Positions 12,381 to 33,600 are shown, counted from the stretch's first letter. The stretch: 35,318 nt of DNA from an uncultured Colwellia sp. (GCA_913061365.1 CAJXUT010000008.1:1-35318); one strand, 5' to 3'. The notes: generated by a model from the letters alone, not told the origin. Program-made: numbers and translations.

Positions 12381-13109
12381 CTAAAATTCATATTCAATCG
12401 CCATACGAAGAATATGCCCCTTACTGCGGCTATCAACTCCTGTGATAAAGCCAGCTTCCCATTTAAGTTGCTTTTGACCATTAAAGCGTTGAATTCCCAT
12501 AAACGCGGGGCCAATACCTAAATAATTTTCACCTGAATATAGTTCGATAGCAGGCTGGAATTGTTCAAGATAACGATAACGATACTGTAAGCGAAACTCT
12601 GTCTCAAATTCACTTATGATAGTATTTCCCCATTCATAAATAATGAAGCCGTTAAGCGTAAGGCTTGTGCGACCAAACTCTTTTTCTATTAGAACACCTG
12701 ATGTAATTTCCCAATTTTTTTGTCTATGTTCTTTTTCAATTTCAAATAACAATCCCCAATCAGCCCAATATTCGCCCTGCTCAGTCAACATCCAACGAGC
12801 CTCAATCTCATATGAACTCAACTTAAAGTTATCATTAGCATCACGTTCACCAACCAAATAAAGTTCTAGCATAAGACTGTCTGTTAATGATTGACCATAA
12901 GCAAAACGTTGAGCAAACTTATTATCTTCACTGTCTTGAAGTGAAAATAGTCGCCACTCAACTTCACGCTCATTAGGTAATACATAAGGGTGATAGACTT
13001 TATCTACTACAACACCGTCGGCATGAACCATGGCACTAAAACTGAATAATAAAATGGCACTAATAAAGTTAAACCAACAAGACTGATTCATGAGTTGGAT
13101 GGCTTTCAT
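12381..13109 (-). CDS. putative outer-membrane beta-barrel protein, last gene of redox operon
   Basis: Start refined to MKAIQLMNQSC (ATGA overlap with upstream stop); signal peptide ending ...VHA, alternating beta-strand pattern, C-terminal aromatic YEF. Confidence 0.6.
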   Translation of the reverse strand: MKAIQLMNQSCWFNFISAILLFSFSAMVHADGVVVDKVYHPYVLPNEREVEWRLFSLQDSEDNKFAQRFAYGQSLTDSLMLELYLVGERDANDNFKLSSYEIEARWMLTEQGEYWADWGLLFEIEKEHRQKNWEITSGVLIEKEFGRTSLTLNGFIIYEWGNTIISEFETEFRLQYRYRYLEQFQPAIELYSGENYLGIGPAFMGIQRFNGQKQLKWEAGFITGVDSRSKGHILRMAIEYEF

Positions 13110-13918
13110 AGAGCTTCTCCAGAAGTAAAACGGACAAAGGATCGATTTGTGCTCAGGTATACAGGAATAATAAAGGCACATATATAGACAATAAGCTGCA
13201 TAAGTGAAGGGGTTGTTTCATAGCCAATAAGAACACGGAGTAATTGCCCAATTTCAGAGCTTTCAGTGATAAAGTTGCTACTATTCCACAGACTATAACT
13301 TAACGGTAAAACGTCCACTTGTTGTAAAAGTACAATCGACTGCATTAACTGAGCTAGAGCAAAAAATAGTAAAAAGTAGTTTGAAGTTTTCTTATGAAGA
13401 CTAGCATCACAATAGCGTAGGAAAAAGAAGAGTAGAATAGCAGCACTGATACAAATACCAACTGCTAAAATAATACCAACAAATAATGATTCAACCCCTG
13501 AATATTCTCCTGTCAACGATTGCGTCCAATAACTTGTTAAATACAGCATAAAGTTTGAGCTATTTAGCGTCAAAACTAATAATAAAATAACTAGAGATAA
13601 ACTTTTTTGAGCCCTGCTATAAAGGTGCTTATTACCCAACAAAAATACTAAGGCACAACATAAATAAATTAGAATAAAGCCCGCTGAAAAGACAAACTCA
13701 GTTCCTTTGCCATCAAAAAGTTGCGATATTTCTTCCATAAAGTAATTTAATAAAAGTACCAATATAATAACCAAAATATTTAGAGCAACGATTTTTTTAA
13801 TGGTAACAATCCTTTTAGAGCTTTCTAAATTCTCAGTTAAGCATAATAATAACAATGCAATCACAATAAACATGGGTAACGCACTTTGTAGAAAGATAAT
13901 AATTGTATTAATTAACAT
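13106..13918 (-). CDS. polytopic membrane protein, distantly FTR1-like
   Basis: Start refined to MLINTIIIFLQSALPMF; about 7 hydrophobic segments; follows a cupredoxin gene. Confidence 0.5.
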   Translation of the reverse strand: MLINTIIIFLQSALPMFIVIALLLLCLTENLESSKRIVTIKKIVALNILVIILVLLLNYFMEEISQLFDGKGTEFVFSAGFILIYLCCALVFLLGNKHLYSRAQKSLSLVILLLVLTLNSSNFMLYLTSYWTQSLTGEYSGVESLFVGIILAVGICISAAILLFFFLRYCDASLHKKTSNYFLLFFALAQLMQSIVLLQQVDVLPLSYSLWNSSNFITESSEIGQLLRVLIGYETTPSLMQLIVYICAFIIPVYLSTNRSFVRFTSGEAL

Positions 13919-14354
13919 GCTGTTCCCCTTCTTTAAGTGCTGTTTCATCATCCAACTCTTTTTTAGGGATTTGTGTATCCACAACAATCACTTTTCCTCG
14001 TGCACTATTTGGATGGTATTCACCAAAAAACTGATATTCGCCTTCTGGCAACGGTCCAATAAAAATAATTGCTTCTTGCTTGGGAAAAAGAACTTTTTCT
14101 CGATTTAAATCAAAGCTGTCAAATTCTTCAACACTATGATCATGGTTCAAGATAACTAACTTAACTTTTTTATTTCTAGGGATAGTGATTTTCGCAGGAT
14201 AAAAAAGATGATTTTTTAAGGCTAGATGGAATTCAGGACGTTTCGCTTCAGCAGTTAAACTAAACAAACAAAGTAAGTTAATTAATACGGTCAGTGTATA
14301 GGCATTTAGGAATCCCTTAAGAAGCTTATCAATCATCTCCCTGCTCCTTTTCAA
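13908..14354 (-). CDS. periplasmic cupredoxin-domain protein
   Basis: Signal peptide; FYPAKITIPRNKKVKLVILNHDHSVEEFDS...PLPEGEYQFFGEYHP cupredoxin pattern. Confidence 0.75.
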   Translation of the reverse strand: MKRSREMIDKLLKGFLNAYTLTVLINLLCLFSLTAEAKRPEFHLALKNHLFYPAKITIPRNKKVKLVILNHDHSVEEFDSFDLNREKVLFPKQEAIIFIGPLPEGEYQFFGEYHPNSARGKVIVVDTQIPKKELDDETALKEGEQHVN

Positions 14355-15780
14355 GTGCTATACCTTTAAAATATACAACAACACACAGCCCTTGCAGCAA
14401 AGTTGATTGAGATAGCTCTATATTGGCACCATGAACGTCAGCAATATGTTTAACAATAGTTAAACCTAATCCGCATCCTTGCACATCTGAATTATGTTGA
14501 TCGCCGCCTACGCGATAAAAACGGTCAAAAATTCGTTGATATTCCTTAGGGTCAATACCCGAGCCTGAATCTTCAACACACAATGCTATTTTTTTATTCC
14601 CTCTATTTTTTTCTTCATTAATTAACTTAACCGAAACGTAAATTTTTCCGCCTGTTGGTGTGTATTTGTTTGCATTAGAAATCAAGTTAATGGCTAGTAA
14701 ATGTATAGAAAACTCATGCGCAAATAAGAAAACATCATCACTTTCTAACACGATAGTTTGTTCTTTCATCGCGATATCATTATAAAGTTCAGCAACAACT
14801 TGTTGTAACAATGAGTTCAAATTGAAACGTGTGCTGTTTTGAATTATTTGCGAAGTATTAGTGCGATTTAAATTTAAAATTTGATCGATCACATGTCCCA
14901 TTCTATCAACACTATTGGTCAATTCTTTTACCGAATCAAAATGACGAATATCATTTGCCGTAACAGCTAAGTCTTTTGAAGATAAATGCGTGGAAAAATC
15001 CTGTGTGATGTTATGAACGTTAATTTTCAGCACACTAAGTGGTGTTTTTAACTCATGGGCAGCATCTTCTGCAAAATGCCTTTCCCGTTGAAATGCAGTA
15101 GCTAAACGGGAGAATAGCTGATTTAAGGTTATAACAATATCAGCCAATTCAGTGTTATTAACCGCTAAATTTAGGGGACTAAAATCATTGGTATTACGTT
15201 GCCCAAGCTCTGTACGTAGTTGATGTAACGGCTTTAAACCTTGCGTGATAATGAGATAAATTAGAAAAGATAGAATAACTATTGCAATAATCATAGGTGT
15301 TACTGCTGCTAGGATAAGATCTTGAGCTAAGGCAAATTGAGTTTGTAGCGGTTGTGCAACAATTACGCTGATAGATGGATAATTTTGATCATCTTGTTCA
15401 TTAGATAAAGTAACAACACGCCAACGATTATTTAAAAAATTTACCTCTGAAAAGAAAATAAACTCTTTATTTAAATGGTTATTAGATAATTCAGGGGCAA
15501 TAATAAGGTGATCGGGTGCATTATTACTTTTAATGATTAAAGTGTTATTTTTCCAAACTTGAAAAGCAAAACTACCTTGCTGCGCTACCTGTGTTACTTG
15601 CCCTATTTTGCTCGTTGTCGTTTGAACAGCCATTAACGTTTGAGCAATATCAATTAACTGTTGATCGAACTGCTTTTCAGCTCGTGACATACTCACTTTA
15701 TAGCCCTGAATAGCAGCAATAAAGGTAATTAATGTTAATACAGAAAAGAGGGTTAGAACCAAATAGCGGCGAATGCTCAA
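14329..15780 (-). CDS. sensor histidine kinase (QseC-like)
   Basis: FAEDAAHELKTPLSVLK H-box, NLISNANKYTP, EDSGSGID, GCGLGLTIVK; two TM segments. Confidence 0.93.
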   Translation of the reverse strand: MSIRRYLVLTLFSVLTLITFIAAIQGYKVSMSRAEKQFDQQLIDIAQTLMAVQTTTSKIGQVTQVAQQGSFAFQVWKNNTLIIKSNNAPDHLIIAPELSNNHLNKEFIFFSEVNFLNNRWRVVTLSNEQDDQNYPSISVIVAQPLQTQFALAQDLILAAVTPMIIAIVILSFLIYLIITQGLKPLHQLRTELGQRNTNDFSPLNLAVNNTELADIVITLNQLFSRLATAFQRERHFAEDAAHELKTPLSVLKINVHNITQDFSTHLSSKDLAVTANDIRHFDSVKELTNSVDRMGHVIDQILNLNRTNTSQIIQNSTRFNLNSLLQQVVAELYNDIAMKEQTIVLESDDVFLFAHEFSIHLLAINLISNANKYTPTGGKIYVSVKLINEEKNRGNKKIALCVEDSGSGIDPKEYQRIFDRFYRVGGDQHNSDVQGCGLGLTIVKHIADVHGANIELSQSTLLQGLCVVVYFKGIALEKEQGDD

Positions 15781-15797
15781 AGCTTAGTACTCATTAC

Positions 15798-16478
15798 TTA
15801 ATATGAATTATTAATAATGTAGCCAACACCACGTACATTTTGAATAAATTTATCAGGTAAATTTTTTCTTAATTTATGAATATGAACTTCAACAGCATTA
15901 CTCAATACTTCTTCACCCCAATGGTATAGCTTTGACTCAATTTGTTCCCGAGATAGTATACGGCCTGCATTTTCCATCAACGCTTTTAACACCATAAACT
16001 CCTTTTTAGAAAAATGGCATTCTATTTCAGTATCTGCGTTATCACCACCGACAAATACTTTATGAGCAAAGGTATCTAGCTTAACTTGTCCCACACAAAT
16101 AAGTGCAGAGCTAGCAGTGCCTAATCTACGTTCAATAACTCGTAATCTCGCCATCAATTCTTGTATCTCAAAAGGCTTAACTAGGTAATCATCAGCGCCA
16201 TAATCAAGCCCTTTAATTTTACTTTCAAGTGAGTCGCGTGCGGTTAAAATGATAACTGGCAATGATGATTTTTGCTTACGCAATTGATTTAACACCTCAA
16301 GCCCATCGATATCAGGTAAGCCTAAATCCAAAATAATCATATCTTGATCGGGTGCAGATAAGGCATTTAATGCGACTTTGCCTTGATTTACATGATTAAC
16401 TACAAACCCTTCACTTTTTAATGATACCTGCAAAGCGCTAGCCAGTGGTAAATCATCTTCAACTAATAATATTCTCAT
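15798..16478 (-). CDS. OmpR-family response regulator (QseB/PmrA-like)
   Basis: MRILLVEDDLPLA...LDLGLPDIDGLEVL...ARDSLESKIKGLDYGADDYLVKPF; winged-helix ...SNAVEVHIHKLRKNL. Confidence 0.94.
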   Translation of the reverse strand: MRILLVEDDLPLASALQVSLKSEGFVVNHVNQGKVALNALSAPDQDMIILDLGLPDIDGLEVLNQLRKQKSSLPVIILTARDSLESKIKGLDYGADDYLVKPFEIQELMARLRVIERRLGTASSALICVGQVKLDTFAHKVFVGGDNADTEIECHFSKKEFMVLKALMENAGRILSREQIESKLYHWGEEVLSNAVEVHIHKLRKNLPDKFIQNVRGVGYIINNSY

Positions 16479-16517
16479 ATCACTGCTACCTCTTGCTTAC
16501 TGTTTTCATGGGTATAC

Positions 16518-17432
16518 TTATCTTCTAGCCCAAAATTTAATGTCTTGTTGCTCTAAAAATTGCTCCGCATGAGCGCCTTGAAGTAAAGCAAGTGTTGCGA
16601 GTATTCCTGCTTGAATACATTGAGGTGCAACAACAGTAATTGATCGTGGTGCTTCATTAATTGGCCAGCCTGTTTTTGCATTCAAAATATGGCTATATCG
16701 TTTACCCTCATGAATAAGAAATCGACGAGCATCACCGCTAGTTGCCAGTGCACCTGAATTTAACGAAATAATCATATCTGTATGGTTGTTGTCGGTATTG
16801 TCTGGGTGTTCAATGGCTACTTGCCAAGGTTCGTTGTTGCCACGAGCACAAGTTACAGCTAAATCGCCACCTAAATTAACTAATACAGGACTATCAGTTA
16901 ACTGTTTTGCAAGGATAATAGCGCGGTCAACCGCATATTCTTTACCTATACCACCAAAATCAATTTCCATTCCTTTTGCTAAAGTTATTTGTTTTTGATC
17001 AAAGTGAATTTTTTGCCAACCAACACATGCTAAAGCATCATTAACTTGTTCTTCTATTGGAAAATCATCATATCGGCTTTTGTTACCATGAAAAGACCAG
17101 ACTTTTCTAAGTACACCAGAGCTGATATCAAACAAGCCATCACTTAATTGATAGCATTGTTCAGCAAAGTTTAGTAATAAATAGGTTTCTTCATCGATAG
17201 TAACTGGCTTTGTCGCATTGTTATTAATAGCACTGCAAATACTATGTTGATTATATCGGCTATATTTATCTTCAATACGCCAAACTTCTGTTGCAAGCGT
17301 ATTACCAAGCGTCGTTGCTAATTGCTTGTCAGAAGTTTGTATTATGACCTCACAAGGACTTGCCATGGCCGTAAATGTTATGCCATAGCTGTCTTTATTC
17401 TTTACTAGCTGTATTGATCTACCTGTATTCAA
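16518..17432 (-). CDS. apbE: FAD:protein FMN transferase (ApbE family)
   Basis: FTAMASPCEVII, YSRYNQHS, DFGGIGKEYAVDRA, LVNLGGDLA, SGDARRFLIHEGKRYSHILNAKTGWP. Confidence 0.92.
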   Translation of the reverse strand: MNTGRSIQLVKNKDSYGITFTAMASPCEVIIQTSDKQLATTLGNTLATEVWRIEDKYSRYNQHSICSAINNNATKPVTIDEETYLLLNFAEQCYQLSDGLFDISSGVLRKVWSFHGNKSRYDDFPIEEQVNDALACVGWQKIHFDQKQITLAKGMEIDFGGIGKEYAVDRAIILAKQLTDSPVLVNLGGDLAVTCARGNNEPWQVAIEHPDNTDNNHTDMIISLNSGALATSGDARRFLIHEGKRYSHILNAKTGWPINEAPRSITVVAPQCIQAGILATLALLQGAHAEQFLEQQDIKFWARR

Positions 17433-17450
17433 GTATTTCTCATCAGAAAA

Positions 17451-18776
17451 TTAGAAAGAGTATGTAACTTGGGCAATAATAGCATCAATAGTTGGGTAAA
17501 GATCTAATTCTTTGAGCGCGCCCGGTGCTTCAAAACCTGCATCCGTAGGAGCTTGACGATAATATTCCAATCTAAATGATAAGTCATGACCGTTATTAAC
17601 TAACAAACCGTATTTTAAGCCGACTGTAAACGTAGACATTTCACCTATACGATAATCTGCGCTAGCATAAGTGGGTAAAGCAGCACCATCAATTAAAAAT
17701 GGCTGATAAAACTCTGCCGCACTTTGTTGATAGAATCTAAAATGTGGTTGCAAATAACTTTGCGTACCAAATGCATCACCTAGTGGAATTCTAAAACGCG
17801 TATCAATAGTATGTGAATCAATTTTCCAGTCATCCCACATATAGCGATAAGAAACATCAAGAACTGTGCTATCAAAGTGATAAAGAGCTTGAGCATAAAG
17901 ACTTTGTTTAACTCTAGAATCAGGACGAGACTCATATATATTATCTTGAGTAAGACCACTCACACCGTCAACAACTGATATCACTTTAAATGGGTCAGTT
18001 AAATAGCCATCTACTGTTGCGTAAGAGTAATTAAACTGAGTAATCATTCTTCGATTAATAACTTGTGTAAAGCCTAATAAAACTTCGGTAGTGGTTTTAG
18101 TATCATCTGCTCCAATACGTGTATTAGCAAAATCATCATCCCAAGTTGCTGAATTACTATCACCAATTAACATAGAGCTTAACGCTTGAGGAAGACCTCC
18201 CTCAGGCGTAAAGGTATCTTGAAAGTAACTAAAGCCAGCTGAGATAGTTGAGTTTTTTCTATCAAAGTCAAAAGCTAAATTACCATTAACACCTAGCGAT
18301 AAATAATCATATTCTTTTGATATATGAACACCACCATTAGCAGTGTAATTTGGTGCTATTGCTTGAGTCCATTGGGCATTAAGTTGAACACGTGTATCTT
18401 GAAACGTATCATCAAGTGGCGTATCACCTGCAGTAACGGTGTATTGCCCGTTACCTGAAGGTCGAGTAAATGTTTGTACTGTAGGCTGTGCTACTGCGCC
18501 ATTAGCTGAAGCCCCTGTTAAGGCATCAATGGTTAATTTTAAATTAAGTACTTCATCACCAACAAAGGTTTTTTTAGCATTGAAAATAGCTTCCCCTGCA
18601 CTCACTCTATCGGCTTCGCTATAAAATAAGAATGCACTGTCAAATTCCCAAGTGTTTTCTTCTACTCCGCTATTAGAGTCTGTTTCTGCTTGAGATACAT
18701 TACTTGTACCAAGCAAAGCCGCAGTAGCAAGCGTTAATGCCGCTTTAATATTGGTATTTATATTTTTATGTTTCAT
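17451..18776 (-). CDS. DUF3570-family outer-membrane beta-barrel protein
   Basis: Signal peptide, LTIDALTGASANGAVAQPT, beta-barrel pattern, C-terminal aromatic F; adjacent DUF4266 and apbE. Confidence 0.82.
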   Translation of the reverse strand: MKHKNINTNIKAALTLATAALLGTSNVSQAETDSNSGVEENTWEFDSAFLFYSEADRVSAGEAIFNAKKTFVGDEVLNLKLTIDALTGASANGAVAQPTVQTFTRPSGNGQYTVTAGDTPLDDTFQDTRVQLNAQWTQAIAPNYTANGGVHISKEYDYLSLGVNGNLAFDFDRKNSTISAGFSYFQDTFTPEGGLPQALSSMLIGDSNSATWDDDFANTRIGADDTKTTTEVLLGFTQVINRRMITQFNYSYATVDGYLTDPFKVISVVDGVSGLTQDNIYESRPDSRVKQSLYAQALYHFDSTVLDVSYRYMWDDWKIDSHTIDTRFRIPLGDAFGTQSYLQPHFRFYQQSAAEFYQPFLIDGAALPTYASADYRIGEMSTFTVGLKYGLLVNNGHDLSFRLEYYRQAPTDAGFEAPGALKELDLYPTIDAIIAQVTYSF

Positions 18777-18838
18777 AAATTACTGTCTATTTCGTGTTGT
18801 TTACTGTTGCATACCGAGATGTATAGTTAAAAGGTGTA

Positions 18839-19069
18839 TTAATTACAGCCACAACCACCGCCACCAAAGCCTTTACCACCACTTGATGCTTCCTTACTAA
18901 AATAAATATGATCATCAAGAGAAGAATCTATAGGAGTTGAATTTAACGACATTTCATCTCTGGCTAGCAAATCTCGCTCCCATGGCTCTACACCTAAACT
19001 TGCGCAACCAGTGGCAACAACAATAAGTGGAACAACTAATATTAATTTAATATTTTTTCTCATAATCAA
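18839..19069 (-). CDS. DUF4266-family small lipoprotein
   Basis: Lipobox VVATGCASLG; VEPWERDLLARDEM; C-terminal GKGFGGGGCGCN. Confidence 0.82.
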   Translation of the reverse strand: MIMRKNIKLILVVPLIVVATGCASLGVEPWERDLLARDEMSLNSTPIDSSLDDHIYFSKEASSGGKGFGGGGCGCN

Positions 19070-19074
19070 CGGCC

Positions 19075-19596
19075 TTATTTGATTGTTTCAATTGGGGTAA
19101 GTAAGTGCTCTATTTCTTGCTGGTATAACGAGATTTTATTGGTATAAAAACCGGTGTGACGAGATTTTATTTTGCCATCTCTTCCTATCAACATGCTGCT
19201 GGGCATTCCCTGTATTTTAAAGTGTTTTGCGATTTTTCCTTTAGGATCGTAGACAACGGTAAAATTAGCTGGCATTTCACTCAGGAATTTAGTCGCTAAC
19301 GCTTTGTTTGCGTCTAAATTAACGCTAATCACACTAAAACCTTGTTGCTTATATTTTGCTTCGATTTTATTCAGCCAAGGGAATGATTTTCTACATGGCC
19401 CACACCATGAGGCCCAAAAATCTAAATATATGACTTCTCCTGCATGTTCAGCTAACGCTTGTTCTAGAGCAACTTGACTGGTGACATTTTCTTGCTCATA
19501 ACTATGGCTCACAAAACTAATCACCATAAATAGAGAAAAAATAAAATATGAAAATTTCTTTAATAAATATTGCAAACGAATACCTAATATAAACAA
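19075..19596 (-). CDS. TlpA/ResA-like thioredoxin-fold protein
   Basis: LDFWASWCGPCRKSFPWLN; signal/anchor segment. Precise start uncertain. Confidence 0.88.
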   Translation of the reverse strand: MFILGIRLQYLLKKFSYFIFSLFMVISFVSHSYEQENVTSQVALEQALAEHAGEVIYLDFWASWCGPCRKSFPWLNKIEAKYKQQGFSVISVNLDANKALATKFLSEMPANFTVVYDPKGKIAKHFKIQGMPSSMLIGRDGKIKSRHTGFYTNKISLYQQEIEHLLTPIETIK

Positions 19597-19680: not shown

Positions 19681-19707
19681 CTTAAGTTTTCTTAACATAA
19701 TCTTAAG
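19681..19707. promoter_or_regulatory. candidate QseB/PmrA-type response-regulator box (three CTTAA(G/C) repeats)
   Basis: CTTAAGttttCTTAACataatCTTAAG at 19681, 19691, 19702; helical-phase spacing; upstream of the operon encoding the RR. Confidence 0.5.
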
Positions 19708-21663: not shown

Positions 21664-22569
21664 ATGGAACTTTTTTTAAATAACTGTCAAAACAACCCTG
21701 TAAACTCTTTTTTATTGACGTTAGAGTCAAAATTTAGCGCCAATACTTACCTTTCCCGTATCTCAATTTTTTGTGATTTCTTCTTTAAAACACGCGATTT
21801 TGATGAGTGCAAATGGTCAGAATTAAACCACATAGCAATACTTCAGTACATGCGCTATGAAACAAACAATGATAAAGCTCACACCACAATCAATTTAACT
21901 ATCTCTGCACTGAAAAGTGTTGCTTATGAGTGTTGGCAACAGAAAATCATTGATATTGAATGTTACACCCGTATAAAGATGATTAAAAAGCTAAAAGGCA
22001 CTCGTGCTGCCGCAGGGCGTGTATTGCAAGCCAGTGAAATAGAAAAAATTAAATGTTACTTTAAGAATCATAGCGACATAAGGAATACAAGAAACTACGC
22101 CCTTTTTGCCCTTGCTTGTGGTGCAGGACTTAGGCGGCGTGAAATTATATTGCTTAACATTGCCAACATTAAAAACGGCACTGTATTAGTTCATGGCAAA
22201 GGGAATAAGTCGCGAACTATATTTTTATCAGGCTTTGTTATTGATGCGGTAAATAGTTGGCTTAACGCTTTAAACAGGAAGAGCGGCGCGTTATTCTCAA
22301 GCATTAATAAAAATAACGAGGTATCGACAACCCGCATCTCGTCAATGGGTGTTGGCGTTGTTATTAATCAGATAATAGATGAGGTTGGAATTGAGCATTT
22401 TACACCGCACGACCTAAGAAGAACGTTTGCCACAACACTACTAGAAGTTGGCGCGGATAAAATAGCCGTGCAACGGTTAATGGGACATTCATCACTTAAT
22501 ACAACGATTGTTTACGATAGGCGCGGAGAGAAAACCCAAAGAACAGCGATTGAAATGCTACCTTTTTAA
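21664..22569 (+). CDS. int: tyrosine recombinase / integrase
   Basis: GAGLRRREI..., HGKGNKSRTIFL, HDLRRTFATTLLEVGAD, LMGHSSLNTTIVYDR: R-H-R-H-Y catalytic set. Confidence 0.95.
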   Translation: MELFLNNCQNNPVNSFLLTLESKFSANTYLSRISIFCDFFFKTRDFDECKWSELNHIAILQYMRYETNNDKAHTTINLTISALKSVAYECWQQKIIDIECYTRIKMIKKLKGTRAAAGRVLQASEIEKIKCYFKNHSDIRNTRNYALFALACGAGLRRREIILLNIANIKNGTVLVHGKGNKSRTIFLSGFVIDAVNSWLNALNRKSGALFSSINKNNEVSTTRISSMGVGVVINQIIDEVGIEHFTPHDLRRTFATTLLEVGADKIAVQRLMGHSSLNTTIVYDRRGEKTQRTAIEMLPF

Positions 22570-22597
22570 ACTTAATTAACCTGGTAACGTCACACAT

Positions 22598-22624
22598 AAA
22601 AAAACCGCCTAGATAGCGGTTTTT
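22598..22624. terminator. intrinsic (bidirectional) terminator after int
   Basis: AAAACCGC-CTAGATA-GCGGTTTT with flanking A/T runs. Confidence 0.85.
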
Positions 22625-22637
22625 GTTATTGGCTTAT

Positions 22638-22799
22638 TTAATCGTCTTTTCTTCTTAACTGCACCGACTCAACAACCGATAACCGAACATCAAAATGATT
22701 AAACTTTTTGTTAATTTGGTGAAGAATACCAAGCCCCACCACAGCGGGTGCTGTCAACCCAATACTAGAGGCTGATTCCAAAAGTGTAAATATATCCAT
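22638..22799 (-). CDS. small hydrophobic phage protein (53 aa)
   Basis: ORF not in supplied track: MDIFTLLESASSIGLTAPAVVGLGILHQINKKFNHFDVRLSVVESVQLRRKDD; TAATG overlap with upstream gene. Confidence 0.6.
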   Translation of the reverse strand: MDIFTLLESASSIGLTAPAVVGLGILHQINKKFNHFDVRLSVVESVQLRRKDD

Positions 22800-23038
22800 T
22801 ACCTGACCACCATTAAAGCATCAACTAAATTATACGTGGCACAATAATCAACACCCACATCAACACCGCGATTTTTAAGCGTGGTTTTTATTACTTTTCT
22901 AAACTCTTTATCCGTTGAATTACAATAAACTTTACTTACATCACCGACTTTGTAAGTACCAGAGCAACTCTGCAATCCACTCAGTAACAACCCTATCAAT
23001 AAAAATACTGTTGTCATAATCTTAGTGCGTAATGTCAT
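22799..23038 (-). CDS. small phage lipoprotein-like protein
   Basis: Signal sequence LLIGLLLSGLQSC; in phage gene array. Confidence 0.55.
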   Translation of the reverse strand: MTLRTKIMTTVFLLIGLLLSGLQSCSGTYKVGDVSKVYCNSTDKEFRKVIKTTLKNRGVDVGVDYCATYNLVDALMVVR

Positions 23039-23264
23039 AAATCCACCCCCCTAATGTTTGATTTTCTTTACCTGTTAATGTTTGCACAACCGAGTTAACG
23101 CCACGGTTGAAAATATTGGTTTGGCTGACTGGGTTTAGTGCATCGCCGACCGTTTCAACGGCTTTTGCCGCTTGTCGCTTGGTGTACCAAATACCAACAA
23201 CACCCAAAACACCGACCGCAGCCACGGCCCCCACTTTCGAGTTCAATAGCTTTTCTTTATTCAT
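23022..23264 (-). CDS. small single-TM phage protein, probable virion membrane protein
   Basis: MNKEKLLNSKVGAVAAVGVLGVVGIWYTKRQA...GDALNPVSQTNIFNRGVNSVVQTLTG. Confidence 0.6.
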   Translation of the reverse strand: MNKEKLLNSKVGAVAAVGVLGVVGIWYTKRQAAKAVETVGDALNPVSQTNIFNRGVNSVVQTLTGKENQTLGGWIYDITH

Positions 23265-23364
23265 TATCAACAATTCCTTTGGTATGCGCTTTTAATTGAT
23301 AAATAGCCGTTGCACACATTGAAGCAATAACGATTGCCCCAAGTGCGGTTTTTAAATATTTCAT
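23257..23364 (-). CDS. very small single-TM phage protein (35 aa)
   Basis: ORF not in supplied track: MKYLKTALGAIVIASMCATAIYQLKAHTKGIVDNE; overlaps start of next gene. Confidence 0.5.
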   Translation of the reverse strand: MKYLKTALGAIVIASMCATAIYQLKAHTKGIVDNE

Positions 23365-23903
23365 TATGTGAACATCTCCGAAGTTTCACCCATACGATGT
23401 AGACGAGCAATAACAAAGCTTTCTTGTTTTGCCAGTCGCTCACCTTCTCGCGCTTGCTCAATGGTAAACGCACCCTTTGAACCTTCAAACACTGACATGT
23501 GCAACATTAATTCAGGTAGCATTGCAGGGCTAACATATTCATTCGGTGATAATTGCAAGCGGTCAGGATGCGACACGTAATCAATATAAGCTTGTGTGTG
23601 GTTATTTTCTTCCGTTCCACTTGGAGCCCATTTATTGATAATTGCATTTAACGTATTATCGCCACGTTCTAAATATTGCAGCAAAATAATATACCCTGCA
23701 CGAAAGCCGTATTCAGGGCTTTGAAATTCTTCAAAAATTGGGTCGAGATTTAGCGCGCGTTCGCCCGTCCAATCTGCCGACTCTTTAATATTTAGCGGAT
23801 TGTTATTGCGAACGTTTTTAGGTTTTTTAGTCATAAAAAAATATCCTATTGGTAAAATTAATAATGTGACTGTATAAAGACTAGGTTTCATTACCACCCC
23901 CAA
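23364..23903 (-). CDS. phage virion-associated protein with NNNPLNI motif, possible peptidoglycan hydrolase
   Basis: N-terminal TM then KNVRNNNPLNIKESADWTGE...YGFRAGYIILLQYLERGDNTLNAIINKWAP, a widespread phage family. Confidence 0.7.
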   Translation of the reverse strand: MGVVMKPSLYTVTLLILPIGYFFMTKKPKNVRNNNPLNIKESADWTGERALNLDPIFEEFQSPEYGFRAGYIILLQYLERGDNTLNAIINKWAPSGTEENNHTQAYIDYVSHPDRLQLSPNEYVSPAMLPELMLHMSVFEGSKGAFTIEQAREGERLAKQESFVIARLHRMGETSEMFT

Positions 23904-25354
23904 ACCTCACAATAACAAACATAATCGCCGCTTTGGTTGCGGTACACATTCACAGTACCTAAAGTTTTATTTACTACGCGCAACTCATATTCATCATTTT
24001 CCCGCTTTATCTTTGCATCAAAGCGATACACGTTTACATAAACGCCCGACCCATTATCTGACTGCCTAGACAAGAACCCTTTAGCAACAACACCGCGAAT
24101 GGCCGAATACAACTCAACACTAATATCATCATCTAAAAGATATGAACCTGCCCTTGCAACGTTAACCTCACCTGTAAAATGTATTAGTGAACCGTCGACC
24201 CTTGTTTTCTTTGTCCCGTCAAACTTTTTTGAGGCACTAGAAAAAAAACCCTGCCAAGCAAAGGCTGGGTTTCCTGATATAGCATTCTGCTTGGCTGTAT
24301 CAAGCACGTTCACCGCTGACCCTGCCGCAATATTCAACATGTTATTTTCAAGCGTGGCAAGCGAATACGAACCCTCAGGAAAAAACACAGGTCTTTTCAT
24401 ATTTACATCATTGTAAATATTACTATTATGATAATAGACCTCTGAAAATGTCCCGTTGTAATTTGGCGAAACTGTTACAGAACTAACAAAATGACAACTG
24501 GCAAAATGACAGTATCTTGCATTTTCCTCTTTGATTTCAACTATTGACAGCTCGCAACCCGTAAACGTCACGCCATTAGAATTTAAAAGATGTATATCAC
24601 CTGCATAAACCTCACAGCCTGAAAAATTAAAAGCTGAAACCGTTATATTGTCTGTAAAAATATTTACTGTATTGTGATTAATTGTTAAACCAGAACAAAC
24701 ACCGTGCGCATCATTGGCACCGCCAACCAAATGCACCCCCGTTAAGTTATCGGTAACGGTTACGGCTGAATAATTATTATTACCCCCTTTAATCCGCAAA
24801 CCTGTATCATTGCCAAAAATAGAGCCTATCGCGGTTTTATTGTATTCTGAGCGCGTACCCTCATTTATACCCGTTACATTGTCTTTAATGACAAAATTAC
24901 TTAAATGATTTCCTTGGTGCCTATCAACACATTCATTACGCTGATAAGCATCACCCTTAAAATCTTTAATGGTTACGTTTTGGGTTTTTGTTTCAACCTT
25001 ACCTAACGCACTAACACCAATAACATTCGTACCTATGTCAGTTTTTCCATTACCAGTGTAATTTATCCCATCAGAAACAGACCTATTTCCATGCTTTAAC
25101 GCGATAACTGTTGCAGGTCTAACCTCTGCACCATAACCAAATATTGTTTGGTCATCTTGCAGCGTAATATCGGCTTTGTAATAATTACCGTCCTTTGGCT
25201 TAGGAACAAAGACCGATAAACCAGTCGCCACCGCCCTTGCGAATGCGGCAGTATTATCCTTTGAATTCCCGCTTGCTTTTGCGCCAAAATTAACAACATT
25301 AACGATGCTGTGCCTTGCATCTATTGCGGAAAGTGAAACCGAAGAGCTACTCAT
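23891..25354 (-). CDS. beta-helix tailspike-like / pectate-lyase-fold receptor-binding protein
   Basis: NVVNFGAKASGNSKDNTAAFARAVATG...VFVPKPKDGNYY pectate_lyase_3-type N-terminus followed by repetitive beta-helix-like sequence. Confidence 0.75.
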   Translation of the reverse strand: MSSSSVSLSAIDARHSIVNVVNFGAKASGNSKDNTAAFARAVATGLSVFVPKPKDGNYYKADITLQDDQTIFGYGAEVRPATVIALKHGNRSVSDGINYTGNGKTDIGTNVIGVSALGKVETKTQNVTIKDFKGDAYQRNECVDRHQGNHLSNFVIKDNVTGINEGTRSEYNKTAIGSIFGNDTGLRIKGGNNNYSAVTVTDNLTGVHLVGGANDAHGVCSGLTINHNTVNIFTDNITVSAFNFSGCEVYAGDIHLLNSNGVTFTGCELSIVEIKEENARYCHFASCHFVSSVTVSPNYNGTFSEVYYHNSNIYNDVNMKRPVFFPEGSYSLATLENNMLNIAAGSAVNVLDTAKQNAISGNPAFAWQGFFSSASKKFDGTKKTRVDGSLIHFTGEVNVARAGSYLLDDDISVELYSAIRGVVAKGFLSRQSDNGSGVYVNVYRFDAKIKRENDEYELRVVNKTLGTVNVYRNQSGDYVCYCEVWGW

Positions 25355-25977
25355 TAAATTAACTCCAAAACATCGACAAAAACACTTGAGCCGCCCGCAT
25401 TAAACGCCCAAAGTTCTCCAGACGTGTCCATGTAATCCACCACTCCAACATCAAGATAACCACCACTTGAATCACTAACGGTATTATCACCACCCAATGA
25501 AACACCATTGAATTGGTCGCTTCGAATATTGATGCGGTTACTTTTGCGTGTACCTGCATCAAATAACTTAGTAGCAACATCAGGAAGGCATTCAACACGT
25601 GGTTTATGGGTGTTTGTTATTGCTGATAAAGTAGCAACCGTCCAAGCGCCTTGTTGCGCAACTGCACCAATCGTAAATGCTTCATCAAAATGCACTTCGA
25701 TAGGTGACGTATTAATTATTTCAGTGCGTGTTACTTGTGCTTTTTTACCGATAGCTGTACTTGTAATAACAAAATCAATAACGACCTGCTCATTAGTCAT
25801 GTTTTGCAATGTTATTTTAGGTCTATCACCAATGTTGATTTGGTCGCTCGTTTCCAGTGGTATATCTTCAAGCCCTTTAGCTGAAAGCTCAACAGAGCCG
25901 CTAAGACTTATTACCGTAAAAATACCACCGCTAGAATTTATGGTTTTCTTTTCATAGCCCGCTAATGTTAATTTCAT
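25354..25977 (-). CDS. putative vertex/spike-base structural protein
   Basis: beta-rich 207 aa, lies immediately upstream of and overlaps the spike gene; TAATG coupling with 25977..26363. Confidence 0.45.
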   Translation of the reverse strand: MKLTLAGYEKKTINSSGGIFTVISLSGSVELSAKGLEDIPLETSDQINIGDRPKITLQNMTNEQVVIDFVITSTAIGKKAQVTRTEIINTSPIEVHFDEAFTIGAVAQQGAWTVATLSAITNTHKPRVECLPDVATKLFDAGTRKSNRINIRSDQFNGVSLGGDNTVSDSSGGYLDVGVVDYMDTSGELWAFNAGGSSVFVDVLELI

Positions 25978-26363
25978 TATTTAGCTGCCTTTTTTTTATC
26001 GTTCGACATATTTGAGGAAACAACGACCGCAAGCACTATCGCGCCCACAATACTAATACCCGCTAAATAGATTGTTTTAGTTGTTTTTAAATCACCCGTT
26101 TTAATTTCTGTCGCTAAATCTTGGACTGAATCAATCGCCTTATTACTAATCGTTGAGACTCGCTCATTTGCATTACCTGCAAACTCTAGCGCGTCCGAGC
26201 TGATTTCTTCTATTGCGCCAAAACTTAACGCGATTGCGTCATGGTCAGTTAATACAAGTGAATTTCCATCACTCGCCGTTATCTGTACACCCGATTCATT
26301 ACTGGCGTTATTGGTTTCCGTTAACGTTTGATTGGTTGTTGCGCTTTTTGAACTGCCGCCCAT
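25977..26363 (-). CDS. small membrane-anchored structural protein (MGGSS N-terminus, C-terminal TM)
   Basis: MGGSSKSATTNQTLTETNN...TIYLAGISIVGAIVLAVVVSSNM. Confidence 0.55.
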   Translation of the reverse strand: MGGSSKSATTNQTLTETNNASNESGVQITASDGNSLVLTDHDAIALSFGAIEEISSDALEFAGNANERVSTISNKAIDSVQDLATEIKTGDLKTTKTIYLAGISIVGAIVLAVVVSSNMSNDKKKAAK

Positions 26364-26716
26364 TAGAGGGTTCTCCTAAAAATACTCTCGACAAACTCAA
26401 AGTCTTGTCTGATTAATTTTAATATTGCGGGTCGTTTTGTATGAAAACGAATTGAAGAAAAGCCGCTATTTTTAACGGCTTGAATAACACCTGTAATAAT
26501 TTCGCCCAAGTTTTCACCCTCAAAACAACACACAACAAGCTCTTTGTTTTCGGCGCGGGTTAGCATATAAGCCTGACCCTTTTGCAATCTCCAACATTGA
26601 GCTATACCGCTATCGCATTGCTTTTTAAGTGCCACACCATCATCACCAACCGATTTTGATAAATATGGCGCAGCTTGGGCGAATGTTATTTTTTCAGCTA
26701 TTACTTTTTCTTCCAC
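26363..26716 (-). CDS. phage protein, possible GNAT-like fold
   Basis: Start refined to GTG 26716 (VEEKVIAEKITF); ENLGEIITGVIQAVKNSGFSSIRFHTKRPAILKLI. Confidence 0.4.
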   Translation of the reverse strand: MEEKVIAEKITFAQAAPYLSKSVGDDGVALKKQCDSGIAQCWRLQKGQAYMLTRAENKELVVCCFEGENLGEIITGVIQAVKNSGFSSIRFHTKRPAILKLIRQDFEFVESIFRRTL

Positions 26717-26910
26717 ACGTAAATTCCACCAATAACCGCGATTGAGATAACAGAAAGCCCCGTGACCCACGGCGGCATTGATATGCCTTTGTTGATATTT
26801 AACCCGCCTTGCGTTGCATTGGTGGTTGAGTAAACATCGCCCGAAGTGGCAGAGCTACCCATATCGGCAGATAAACCACCGCCACCCGTAAGGCTTGCCA
26901 TGCCGCCCAT
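26701..26910 (-). CDS. small single-TM structural protein
   Basis: MGGMASLTGGGGLSADMGSS...WVTGLSVISIAVIGGIYVWKKK. Confidence 0.55.
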   Translation of the reverse strand: MGGMASLTGGGGLSADMGSSATSGDVYSTTNATQGGLNINKGISMPPWVTGLSVISIAVIGGIYVWKKK

Positions 26911-27215
26911 TATTTGACAGCCTTATAAACAACACCCGCAACCAACAATCCACCAAAACCAATCGCTGAATACAAGCCGATTTTTTTATAATTGATATTT
27001 ATTGAGTCGTTAACAACAATTGTCTCCCCTGCTTGCGTTTCACCGCGTTCAGGTTGGTAGATTGTGTCAGTATTGCCATTGGCATAATTGACGGGCTTTA
27101 TCGTTTCACGACTAGATTCGCTAAACTTGGCATTTACATAAGTATTAGCCAAGCCCACGAACGCATCAAAATAGCCGCCGTTATCTTCTTGTGATTTCTC
27201 AACAATAGATTCCAT
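26910..27215 (-). CDS. small single-TM structural protein
   Basis: C-terminal TM IGLYSAIGFGGLLVAGVVYKAVK directly downstream of capsid gene. Confidence 0.55.
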   Translation of the reverse strand: MESIVEKSQEDNGGYFDAFVGLANTYVNAKFSESSRETIKPVNYANGNTDTIYQPERGETQAGETIVVNDSININYKKIGLYSAIGFGGLLVAGVVYKAVK

Positions 27216-27225
27216 GCGTTACCCC

Positions 27226-28035
27226 TTAAGCAGCTTCAAGCACTTCAAATAACACAGGAATGTTACCCGCAGCACTAACTGTTGGCTTTATCTCGAAAGA
27301 CTTACCCGCCGTTTGTAATGAATCCATCAAGTTAAAGCCAGACGCGATAGCATCAAAGTGCATGTAGCCCGCTTGCTTGTTTCGCTTAAAACGACTTAAC
27401 ATCAAATCATTTTGTGCTGTACTCATATTCCAACGTTCTAAGCGGTTATGCTTAATCGTTAAGTTGGTAATATTGGCTGTTTTCATGTGCATACGCTGAA
27501 TGCGTGGACCGCGTGAAAAAGTACTAAAGTTATTTAAACCCGTGGCGCTTGCATCAATATCAAGTACATATTTACGCGGGACATAAACGCGTTGCTCTAA
27601 AGCGCCACCGATTTCTAATCGACCACGTTGACGAATAAAGCCCGCGATTTCTGGCGAATCACCATCGTTGGTTTGCTGTGCAGTAGCGGCAGCAATTTTT
27701 AAGGTAAGCGTTAATTTATCTTGTGCAGTAGTTACAAGACCCGTTAGATTTTGACCGTCTTCTGTGCGACCTGTTAAATCATCAAATGGCACAATGAAAA
27801 TACCCGCCGCGATTGCATCAGGGTTTTTGTACGCTTCAATCATGCGTAAATCTTCACCCGTTAAATCGTAAATTACATCGCCATTAAGCTTTAATTGTGC
27901 TTGTAATAATTGGTCATTATCCATATTGGTCATTAAGACGATATCAGATAAGACCGCGCCCGTTTCGATGTGCATAGTGGTTTTACCCGCCCATACAATA
28001 GAAACATTATCGAGTTGTTGATTAGTATGGCGCAT
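27226..28035 (-). CDS. major capsid protein, PM2 P2-like (double jelly roll)
   Basis: about 269 aa (start refined to MRHTNQQL), size and pattern of viral coat protein P2 family; embedded among TM virion genes next to packaging ATPase. Confidence 0.75.
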   Translation of the reverse strand: MRHTNQQLDNVSIVWAGKTTMHIETGAVLSDIVLMTNMDNDQLLQAQLKLNGDVIYDLTGEDLRMIEAYKNPDAIAAGIFIVPFDDLTGRTEDGQNLTGLVTTAQDKLTLTLKIAAATAQQTNDGDSPEIAGFIRQRGRLEIGGALEQRVYVPRKYVLDIDASATGLNNFSTFSRGPRIQRMHMKTANITNLTIKHNRLERWNMSTAQNDLMLSRFKRNKQAGYMHFDAIASGFNLMDSLQTAGKSFEIKPTVSAAGNIPVLFEVLEAA

Positions 28036-28036
28036 A

Positions 28037-28147
28037 TTATTTACCACCTAAGAATTTAACAGCGTCAACGTTATTTGATGCGTAAACAACCGCACCAGAT
28101 ACCGCAACGGCAATAAGGGCAGATAGCCCAATAGTTTTGTAGTTCAT
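28037..28147 (-). CDS. 36-aa single-TM protein, probable minor virion membrane protein
   Basis: ORF not in supplied track: MNYKTIGLSALIAVAVSGAVVYASNNVDAVKFLGGK; stop abuts capsid-gene start. Confidence 0.6.
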   Translation of the reverse strand: MNYKTIGLSALIAVAVSGAVVYASNNVDAVKFLGGK

Positions 28148-28268
28148 AGTCGAACCCTTATTAAAAATGAATGTATAAATCGGTTTTGAGTAGAACAAAT
28201 GATTCCAAATTGATTCAACAAGTATTCGGAAACGATTCGGAATTGCATTTTTAAAATCAAGGCAATAA

Positions 28269-28292
28269 AAAACCGCGCAATTGCGCGGTTTT
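28269..28292. terminator. intrinsic terminator, perfect 24-bp palindrome
   Basis: AAAACCGCGCAATTGCGCGGTTTT between packaging ATPase and capsid module. Confidence 0.85.
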
Positions 28293-28311
28293 AAAGGGTT
28301 ATTCGGAAATA

Positions 28312-29130
28312 CTAACTTACTACTTTATAGCTGCCATTTTTATCAATTTCTTTTTGCTCAACACTCCAGTTTTTAGTTAAATAATTAGATTGTGGTACAT
28401 AAGCGGCCATTTTTTCAAACGTGCCACCCGCCTCACTGTAAAGATAATGTACTTTTGTTCTGACTATTTCGTCTAACTGTTCGGCAAACATTGAAAGCTT
28501 GACGTTTCTATGACCTAAATCAATGACATCAACAGCACGACAACCTAACTCTTTAATAACGCGGTTTTGGTCATTTAAGCCGCCTTGAGCACCTATCACT
28601 TTAATAGGTGAATTATTCCAAATAGTTTTTGGCACTTCTGCACTACGCTGAAAAATAGCAATAGCTCGTAGGCCAAATTTACGGCCACCCGTCCAAATTT
28701 TACCAATGATACTTTCATCTTTTTGGTTGCTTTCTGAGTACTCGCCGAACTCTTCAAAAACAGTGTATAAAATACGATTACCATCAGCCGCAGCCCACGC
28801 AAGCGAACCAAACCAATGTGCCTCTTTAATCAATGATTTTTTACGCTCTTTTTCACTGTTACCCGTTAACTTTGGCGTATAAGCCAAAATAAACGGCTTA
28901 CCCGTAGCCCATGCTTTTTGAAATATTTTTGCAAAGTTCATGCGAGTTTTATATTGATAAACCTTGCGACCTGCTAGTTTTTTATATTCACCATGCGGGT
29001 CAAAAATAATAACGGGATATTTTGCAGGGATAATGCCTAGCGCATTCATGGCAACACCTTTGCCGCCACCCGTCATACAACAAACACTTGTGTGTTTTGC
29101 ATTTCTCGCAGTGTTAGCATTTATCGCCAC
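28312..29130 (-). CDS. P9/A32-type genome-packaging ATPase (FtsK/HerA superfamily)
   Basis: CCMTGGGKGVAMNAL Walker A, VIIFDPHGEYKKLAG, ILYTVFEEFGE Walker B. Confidence 0.8.
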   Translation of the reverse strand: MAINANTARNAKHTSVCCMTGGGKGVAMNALGIIPAKYPVIIFDPHGEYKKLAGRKVYQYKTRMNFAKIFQKAWATGKPFILAYTPKLTGNSEKERKKSLIKEAHWFGSLAWAAADGNRILYTVFEEFGEYSESNQKDESIIGKIWTGGRKFGLRAIAIFQRSAEVPKTIWNNSPIKVIGAQGGLNDQNRVIKELGCRAVDVIDLGHRNVKLSMFAEQLDEIVRTKVHYLYSEAGGTFEKMAAYVPQSNYLTKNWSVEQKEIDKNGSYKVVS

Positions 29131-29659
29131 TAGTCATCACCTCGCTTGTTTTCTCATTATTGACTTGTAACCAAATAGGTAAACCCGCAACACCAACACC
29201 GACCGCAGCCATTACTTCAGGAATCCAAGAATCCAAATCGACACCATCAGGGTTTACATTTATTTTAGGCTTGTATTTTTGAATAAGCGGCGCAGTTAAC
29301 ACAGCAAAAATAGTGGTCGGCATTTCACCAATCACAATTTCCTTACCTGTTAACTCACTGGCTATTTTTGTTATTTGACCGAGGCCCGCAATAGCAATAC
29401 CCATTGCTTGCTCAGCACTAACTTTTGTTTGTGCTTGCTCTTCATTGCTCGAATGCTCGCTTTTTTCTTTCTGCTCGCTTTCTGCTTGCGTGGCGGTTGC
29501 CTCGCCTAGAATATCGTCTAATTCGGAATTATCCACGCTATACATGGGAATACTGTCATTATTGCTTTCGGAATTTTCCAAAATCATATTCGAAACTTCT
29601 TCGGACCTTTTCAAACGCAAAACGCCACGGCTTTGATTATTTTCACTGGCTTGTTCCAA
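29114..29659 (-). CDS. phage membrane protein of unknown function
   Basis: acidic N-terminus, hydrophobic C-terminal segment VMAAVGVGVAGLPIWLQV. Confidence 0.5.
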   Translation of the reverse strand: MEQASENNQSRGVLRLKRSEEVSNMILENSESNNDSIPMYSVDNSELDDILGEATATQAESEQKEKSEHSSNEEQAQTKVSAEQAMGIAIAGLGQITKIASELTGKEIVIGEMPTTIFAVLTAPLIQKYKPKINVNPDGVDLDSWIPEVMAAVGVGVAGLPIWLQVNNEKTSEVMTSGDKC

Positions 29660-29662
29660 AAT

Positions 29663-30070
29663 CTACCCCTTTAATTTACTTAACTGATAAACGCCACCAC
29701 CAAAAACAGCAGCACCAAAAACACCTAGTGCTATTTTTAAAAAACCACCTCGCTTTGGTGATTCTGTCTCGAATTCTTCACTTTCAACCTTAATGCCTGA
29801 TTCCAAATTTTCAGGTAAATCGTTTTGCTCAGGCTTAAAATCACCCGCTTGCTTGTCTTGCGTGTTTTTACTGGAATTATTCGGAATTGATTTAAAGAAT
29901 TCACCCTTAACGCCAATATCTTCTTTTGCTTGCGCCTGAATCTCATTGGCTACATCTGTATTAACAAGACTGCCGCATTTATTAACGCAATGGATATACG
30001 CTAATTTCTTGCCGTTTTTTCTATGCCGAACTTCGGCAATTCGCCCACAACTACATATAGTTTGTAACAT
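29663..30070 (-). CDS. zinc-ribbon plus C-terminal TM phage protein
   Basis: CSCGRIAEVRHRKNGKKLAYIHCVNKCG ... GGFLKIALGVFGAAVFGGGVYQL. Confidence 0.55.
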   Translation of the reverse strand: MLQTICSCGRIAEVRHRKNGKKLAYIHCVNKCGSLVNTDVANEIQAQAKEDIGVKGEFFKSIPNNSSKNTQDKQAGDFKPEQNDLPENLESGIKVESEEFETESPKRGGFLKIALGVFGAAVFGGGVYQLSKLKG

Positions 30071-30073
30071 GGT

Positions 30074-30259
30074 TTAAGTCTCCTTATTCGACTTTTGGAA
30101 TTTTGCGACCATTGGTGGTATTTTTGCCATAAAAGCAATAAACCCAAAAACAGCCATAATAAAAATATAACTTTGAAATAATATAAAGAAAGCACCGCCC
30201 ACTATTACACCAAGCGCAAATACAAAGGCGAAAGCATAAAGTAGATTAGTGTTTTTCAT
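30074..30259 (-). CDS. small two-TM phage protein
   Basis: 61 aa, two hydrophobic segments. Confidence 0.5.
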   Translation of the reverse strand: MKNTNLLYAFAFVFALGVIVGGAFFILFQSYIFIMAVFGFIAFMAKIPPMVAKFQKSNKET

Positions 30260-30448
30260 TTAGTTTATTTCAACTTTTACTTCGGCTTTTTCGCCATTTT
30301 CATCAACTAAGTTTTGACCAATATCAATACCGACTGCCAACCCTTCGGCAACACCTTCTTTTTGACCATCTTCACGACCTGTTACATAAATTATTGCGCC
30401 ACTGATAGCACCCATTGCTGTCGCCCATAAAACATTTATATTTTTCAT
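30260..30448 (-). CDS. small TM phage protein
   Basis: 62 aa: NVLWATAMGAISGAIIYVTGREDGQKEG. Confidence 0.5.
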   Translation of the reverse strand: MKNINVLWATAMGAISGAIIYVTGREDGQKEGVAEGLAVGIDIGQNLVDENGEKAEVKVEIN

Positions 30449-30452
30449 TTTT

Positions 30453-30701
30453 TCACCTTTTATTTTTTAACTTTAAGATTATTTTTCCGTTCTTTTTCCG
30501 GGCTTTTGATGTGAAGCCGTTTTTAATTAATTGCACCTGATAATTATCAATCGTCTGGTTTTTATCAAGCTCATTCAATGCCATTTCAAAGTCATTTTTT
30601 GGCTTGTTATATGGCTTTTCTTCCATATCAAAAGATAGTGATACTTCTTTTTTATTTGTACTATTATCAACTGTCGTTGACCTAGAAGAACAACCACCCA
30701 T
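30453..30701 (-). CDS. small phage protein with MGGCSS N-terminus
   Basis: Start refined to MGGCSSRSTTVDNSTN: TAATG overlap with rep stop. Confidence 0.55.
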   Translation of the reverse strand: MGGCSSRSTTVDNSTNKKEVSLSFDMEEKPYNKPKNDFEMALNELDKNQTIDNYQVQLIKNGFTSKARKKNGKIILKLKNKR

Positions 30702-32830: not shown

Positions 32831-33600
32831 ACCGGTGTGTCACATTTCAACGCCGCACGACTGGCTTTTTTTCTGCAATTTTGATGGGCATGTTTTGCCT
32901 TACCTTTAACGATTCGACCGCAGCCACAATTACACTTTTCACCTGGTGTTGTCACACTTTGGTAAATCGCTAAATCTATAATTTCAGCCAAGTACTGACT
33001 CATAACCAATGGCACAGCGTTACCAATAACGGTTTTTTTTCCTTTAACGGAAAAGTGCTCAAGCTCACCAACAAAATCACAACCTTGTATTTGTGCCATT
33101 TCTTTTAAAGATAAACTATCCTGGCAAGTCACAGCACGATGAGTTGTGGGCGGGTTGTTTTTGATGATTGGATTTAATAAATATTCACCTGGCGCGTCAC
33201 ACTTAAAACCAAAAGTAAAAATTCTTCTACGACTTGCTATAGGATTAAACCAAGAAAGGTCTAATTCAAAACGCTGTATACGATAACCATCAACCACGAA
33301 CTCAGGCACACCAACAACGTTCTCATGCAAAAACCAAAGCGGCTTAACATTGGTAACAACTCGAATAAATTGATTTAGCATCTCAAGACTGTAATCTTTA
33401 GGGTTACGATTTAGGCGGCTAAAATCCTGACAAGGAGAGCCACCGATTACACCATCACAAAAACCTTGTGGCGGTTTGAAATCTCTAATATCTGAGCCTA
33501 AAAACTTATCACCCGCACTAACAACGCAAAAGTTATTATTAACAAACCCTTTACCGAATAGGTCAATACCTGAAAATAAAGACAACACAAGGCGATTCAC
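32827..33600 (-). CDS. C5 cytosine DNA methyltransferase with C-terminal zinc-finger-like tail
   Basis: LFSGIDLFGKG, GGSPCQDFS, ENVVGV, ASRRRIFTFG, IGNAVPLVMSQ; CNCGCGRIVKGKAKHAHQNCRKKASR tail. Confidence 0.9.
   Translation of the reverse strand: MNRLVLSLFSGIDLFGKGFVNNNFCVVSAGDKFLGSDIRDFKPPQGFCDGVIGGSPCQDFSRLNRNPKDYSLEMLNQFIRVVTNVKPLWFLHENVVGVPEFVVDGYRIQRFELDLSWFNPIASRRRIFTFGFKCDAPGEYLLNPIIKNNPPTTHRAVTCQDSLSLKEMAQIQGCDFVGELEHFSVKGKKTVIGNAVPLVMSQYLAEIIDLAIYQSVTTPGEKCNCGCGRIVKGKAKHAHQNCRKKASRAALKCDTPV

Follow-up and report, generated by a model that had tools for sequence, protein, structure and literature searches.

A nine-gene Colwellia operon joins an ApbE-DUF3570 flavin core to a cupredoxin-FTR1-barrel module and may encode an envelope iron-redox system

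The window analyzed in this study, a stretch of 35,318 nucleotides from an uncultured Colwellia sp. (CAJXUT010000008.1), carries a minus-strand operon in which, judged by gene content, two units are joined: a flavin core (TlpA, DUF4266, DUF3570 and ApbE) and a separable module of a response regulator (RR), a sensor histidine kinase (HK), a cupredoxin, an FTR1 homologue and a 12-strand barrel. The reading favored here, which we regard as an evenly balanced proposition, is that the operon encodes an iron-redox system of the cell envelope, regulated as one unit, with its flavin close to the surface of the cell. The flavin part is of a known kind; the joining of the modules, the predicted surface placement and two altered enzymes, ApbE and FTR1, are new.

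All nine ORFs of the original prediction (12381-19596) were confirmed by ORF reading, with short gaps or overlaps between them. Pfam matches were strong for seven of the labels, from TlpA to the cupredoxin (Table 1). The label FTR1-like holds at the level of the family, with the REXXE motif absent, and the outer membrane protein (OMP), for which no family match was obtained, holds as a modeled 12-strand barrel. Corrected likely starts are ATG 19063 (DUF4266), ATG 13918 (FTR1 homologue), ATG 13109 (OMP) and, from comparison with relatives, an in-frame TTG at ~19575 (TlpA). The original prediction did not note that ApbE is signal-less and altered in its triad, that the operator is specific to the operon, or that two separable modules were joined.

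Table 1. Features of the operon, in window coordinates, with Pfam, NCBIfam, PDB or model support.
Feature	Coordinates	Strand	Basis
Predicted operator CTTAAG-ATTAT-GTTAAG	19691..19707	-	Sequence; TTAAG recurs a third time 10 bp on, ~19680
TlpA/ResA-like periplasmic thioredoxin, WASWCGPC	19075..19596	-	Pfam Redoxin/thioredoxin 2.9e-21; TTG start from comparison with relatives
DUF4266 small lipoprotein, lipobox ATGC, C-terminal GGGCGCN	18839..19069	-	PF14086 1.1e-22
DUF3570, modeled 16-stranded outer-membrane barrel	17451..18776	-	PF12094 9.3e-153; AlphaFold2; Foldseek
ApbE recognition motif DALTGAS, predicted FMN residue Ser90	18507..18527	-	Motif rule PMC12052999
ApbE flavin transferase, no evident signal peptide, Gly276 at triad Asp position	16518..17432	-	PF02424 1.9e-67
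OmpR-family RR, best NCBIfam model PmrA (below cut-off)	15798..16478	-	Pfam 1.5e-29; NCBIfam
Sensor HK with 2CSK_N domain	14329..15780	-	Pfam 3.5e-20
FtrB/EfeO-type cupredoxin, carboxylates replacing Cu ligands	13908..14336	-	PF13473 (cupredoxin_1) 2.2e-27; PDB 8VUK FtrB 1.5e-12
FTR1-family membrane protein, QSALP for REXXE	13106..13918	-	NCBIfam EfeU, weak; relatives' profile
12-stranded outer-membrane barrel protein	12381..13109	-	AlphaFold2 pLDDT 84.0; Foldseek

Flavinylation of DUF3570 proteins by ApbE has been reported in Chlorobium luteolum (Meheust et al., eLife 2021, PMC8238504), so the main inference of the original prediction is published in kind. That paper also describes clusters of DUF3570 with DUF4266 and thioredoxin-like genes, notes the CXC tail of DUF4266, suggests a thiol/flavin electron path, and gives two [S/T]GA[S/T] motifs per DUF3570 protein and a further 316 ApbE-DUF3570 clusters from which DsbD is absent. 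The window operon resembles its “DsbD systems” in having all four genes (ApbE, DUF3570, DUF4266 and thioredoxin), the target motif and the DUF4266 CXC tail, which is kept as GGGCGCN in 131/137 homologues. It differs from those systems in having no DsbD in the cluster and one motif instead of two, and it adds the RR-HK and cupredoxin-FTR1-barrel module. The DsbD gene of this genome is found on a separate contig (G000:C290). A TTAAG repeat near dsbD was rejected as regulon evidence, the intergenic stretch being short and A/T-rich and the repeat unconserved before dsbD in most relatives. Our literature search found no paper besides PMC8238504 that names DUF3570 or DUF4266, and the consulted passages of PMC8238504 give neither a barrel fold nor a flavin side for DUF3570. 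Flavinylation sites have also been placed in outer-membrane proteins (2024 paper, PMC11334425), so that location may have been recognized before.

In the motif D-x-x-[ST]-G-A-[ST], the residue that receives FMN from ApbE is the final Ser/Thr (PMC12052999). The motif DALTGAS lies where it was originally placed, at residues 84-90 of DUF3570, and because FMN goes on its last residue the expected attachment site is Ser90, not Thr87; the test mutant is then S90A in place of the T87A proposed earlier. Conservation of the motif across DUF3570, Thr87 included, was borne out: it is present in 110/111 ApbE-linked DUF3570s, the sole exception having undetermined residues, both Thr87 and Ser90 are conserved, and Ser90 is invariant in the homologue alignment. 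As a sequence feature the match is not due to chance, and it is the single [S/T]GA[S/T] motif in the window protein. By sequence DUF3570 is not an NqrC/RnfG-type protein: Pfam gave no FMN_bind (PF04205) match, and its one match besides DUF3570 was to Usher, weak and below threshold. The motif Gly is lost in three DUF3570s of ApbE-less clusters (L061-L063) and the motif is retained in four closer relatives without a neighboring ApbE; thus, loss of the motif without ApbE is true of the distant group only. We infer that DUF3570 is flavinylated in this organism. As a separate observation on the distant group, the DUF4266 tail is kept in L061 and L062. The L062 cluster adjoins a protein whose hydrazine-synthase-alpha middle domain was checked, and L063 appears likewise by its similar ends.

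DUF3570 was modeled with AlphaFold2 from 58 sequences, and the strand count is our own. The model is a 16-strand barrel (pLDDT 87.1), and Foldseek matched it to outer-membrane barrels, FadL, OmpG and AlgE among them. Neither DUF3570 nor the second barrel has a near sequence relative of solved structure. Modeled loops have a mean of 19.5 residues on one side and 4.0 on the other. The long-loop side is predicted to be extracellular provided that both termini are periplasmic, a placement that follows from the predicted model and a general topology rule for such barrels. In the model the motif spans the top of strand 3 and the first part of a loop of 36 residues. Near-invariant residues (n=84) would lie mostly on the long-loop side, with 67 there and 16 opposite. 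Outer-membrane barrels usually vary in their extracellular loops, so this clustering suggests a functional site at the extracellular side. The modeled barrel and the conserved motif support the earlier proposal of a barrel substrate with an ApbE motif in a metal-linked operon, and its attachment residue, Thr87, had to be given up.

The ApbE of this operon type is unusual. Most of its homologues have ~20-30 residues ahead of the conserved MAS.C motif, and a simple hydrophobicity scan, with a few results affected by uncertain starts, gave no clear signal peptide or lipobox in them. Aligned to the triad of V. cholerae ApbE (Ser241/His257/Asp285), the window enzyme keeps Ser232 and His248 and has Gly276 for Asp. 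This position is Gly in 111/111 homologues of the main set, and in 16 further loci it reads mostly AG, with one AD. The second, lipoprotein-type ApbE of the genome retains the triad Asp. Without this residue the subfamily may have little or no ApbE activity.

The FTR1 homologue gave no significant Pfam match and a weak NCBIfam EfeU match (4.6e-5). A profile built from its relatives also finds canonical REXXE-bearing FTR1 proteins, placing all of them in one family. At the REXXE position, in the first transmembrane helix, the window protein reads QSALP; across the alteromonad clade Pro stands in place of the final Glu (xxxLP; one xxxFP), and relatives outside that clade have REXXE intact (REVLE etc.). 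Plain iron import by this protein is unsupported because the iron-binding motif is lost. The closest PDB entry to the cupredoxin is 8VUK, FtrB of Brucella. In alignment with it, the Fe(II)-site residues E84/E86/E93/D119 become E/D/E/E and His121 is kept, Gly stands at the FtrB Cu ligand D118, and Cys/Met copper ligands are absent. Foldseek matched the model of the second barrel to FapF, KdgM, a COG4313 channel and, weakly, PcoB. The window shares with FtrABCD and EfeUO an FtrB-type cupredoxin adjoining an FTR1-family protein, and differs from them in an FTR1 without REXXE, an extra outer-membrane barrel and a two-component system. No members of the P19/FtrA, FtrD or EfeB families were found in the operon. 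In a separate set of loci (L150:5064-6620, minus strand, and L151-L156), ORFs of ~515-526 aa fuse a REXXE-bearing FTR1 permease to a 12-strand barrel. A signal-peptide-like segment with an AxA-type site at the junction suggests a precursor cleaved by signal peptidase. The 530-aa “OMP” ORFs of L147 and L148 were rejected as fusions, the FTR1 homologue there being a separate ORF.

The best NCBIfam model for the RR is PmrA, with a score under the model cut-off. The Fe(II) sensor motif of BqsS is RExxE. No RExxE-like motif was found in the N-terminal sensor region of the HK, and BqsS-type sensing was rejected for this reason; no recognized metal motif was found in the sensor HK either. The predicted operator fits the BqsR consensus TTAAG(N)6TTAAG (PMC4682146). 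The strict form, CTTAAGN5STTAAG, has one match in the 3.79 Mb genome, before the operon, and a looser form occurs at 14 places. Upstream of unique core operons TTAAG-N6-TTAAG was present in 56/91, compared with 20/667 control upstream regions, and the reversed pattern in 1/91. Among loci where the module comes first or stands apart, several have the operator ahead of the RR (L022, L127, L135, L158, L163, L242 and L244). The PmrA-like RR and the TTAAG(N)6TTAAG site are thus held in common with BqsRS/PmrAB-type systems, from which the window differs in its sensor (2CSK_N, no RExxE) and in the restriction of the strict operator to one genome site.

The two units occur both apart and together. The five-gene module without DUF3570 is found on Pseudoalteromonas and Alteromonas plasmids, and many Colwellia, Rheinheimera, Shewanella and Thalassotalea loci carry the core but not the module. 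Of the Colwellia genomes in which the FTR1 homologue is clear (E below 1e-20), 17/17 have the core and 16/17 have it on the same contig; a module apart from the core was not found in the Colwellia genomes searched. Joined layouts include the module first (L127, L134, L135, L242, L244), divergent (L116) and convergent (L163) arrangements, which represent the variety of layout and not its frequency because most were retrieved by way of DUF3570. Downstream of ApbE in L032 and L055, solute-binding protein genes replace the RR-HK-cupredoxin module; that of L055 belongs to family 3 (Pfam) and that of L032 is similar in N-terminal sequence.

These distributions bear on whether the two units serve one function. 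The flavin core could have a general envelope thiol-redox or respiratory role, with the cupredoxin, FTR1 homologue and barrel performing a separate metal function under the same regulator and stress signal. The many loci with a core alone and the plasmids with a module alone agree with such a division. We nevertheless consider it unlikely, though deserving some weight, since the modules are repeatedly joined in several layouts under one shared operator and, in the Colwellia genomes searched, the module was not found away from its core. The metal could also be copper instead of iron, making this a copper-responsive periplasmic redox system. The cupredoxin fold, the weak match of the second barrel to the copper channel PcoB and the scores of HK and RR with heavy-metal models would fit. 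However, the cupredoxin lacks Cys/Met ligands, has Gly at D118 and keeps the Fe(II)-site residues, and relatives of the module carry FTR1 iron permeases with REXXE intact, which makes copper quite improbable.

The altered ApbE raises a further doubt, namely that the Gly-bearing protein is a non-catalytic relative and DUF3570 is unflavinylated in this lineage. Asp285 counts among the three conserved residues described for the active site, and its replacement extends through the main set and most of the further loci. Yet the target motif is strongly conserved, the triad Ser and His are retained, and the C. luteolum pair, compared here irrespective of its triad residues, is active (PMC8238504). 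We accordingly see little likelihood in a non-catalytic ApbE.

In the favored reading of an envelope iron-redox system, the signal-less ApbE would attach FMN to Ser90 of DUF3570, probably before export, and DUF3570 would sit in the outer membrane as the modeled 16-stranded barrel with its flavin at or near the extracellular mouth. TlpA, reduced by the separately encoded DsbD, would pass electrons to the DUF4266 CXC tail and on to the flavin, as in the thiol/flavin path suggested by Meheust et al. (2021). At the outer surface the flavin could then reduce Fe(III) or a different metal, whose handling in the periplasm and outer membrane would fall to the Fe(II)-type cupredoxin, FTR1 homologue and second barrel. 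The PmrA-like RR would turn on all nine genes through the one operator. Both iron as the substrate and this direction of electron flow are inferred. A more specific and rather doubtful version is a haem-free outer-membrane conduit, in which thioredoxin would feed a DUF4266 CXC tail in the lumen of the 16-stranded DUF3570 and, through it, a covalent FMN at the outer opening of the barrel; an ApbE working without its triad Asp would have attached this flavin in the cytosol, ahead of export.

Discussion of electron transfer at the outer membrane mostly centers on multihaem cytochromes in porins. Mtr-type porin-cytochrome conduits are similar in concept to the system proposed here, an outer-membrane barrel bringing a redox cofactor toward the surface; the DUF3570 system would use flavin and thiols, not haems, and no sequence relation is claimed. 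If the proposal is correct, a thiol-fed flavinylated barrel would be a second route moving electrons to the surface, in many marine bacteria. DUF3570 and DUF4266 would gain a testable role, and the export of a chain bearing a covalent flavin would call for explanation. The operon would also illustrate an iron permease family losing its iron motif on joining a flavin system.

Elsewhere in the window (21664-33600), a tyrosine recombinase adjoins asnB. After it comes a group of minus-strand genes that includes those for a PM2-like coat protein P2, an ATPase of HerA/DUF87 type and a replication protein of G2P type. This region is probably a corticovirus-like provirus.
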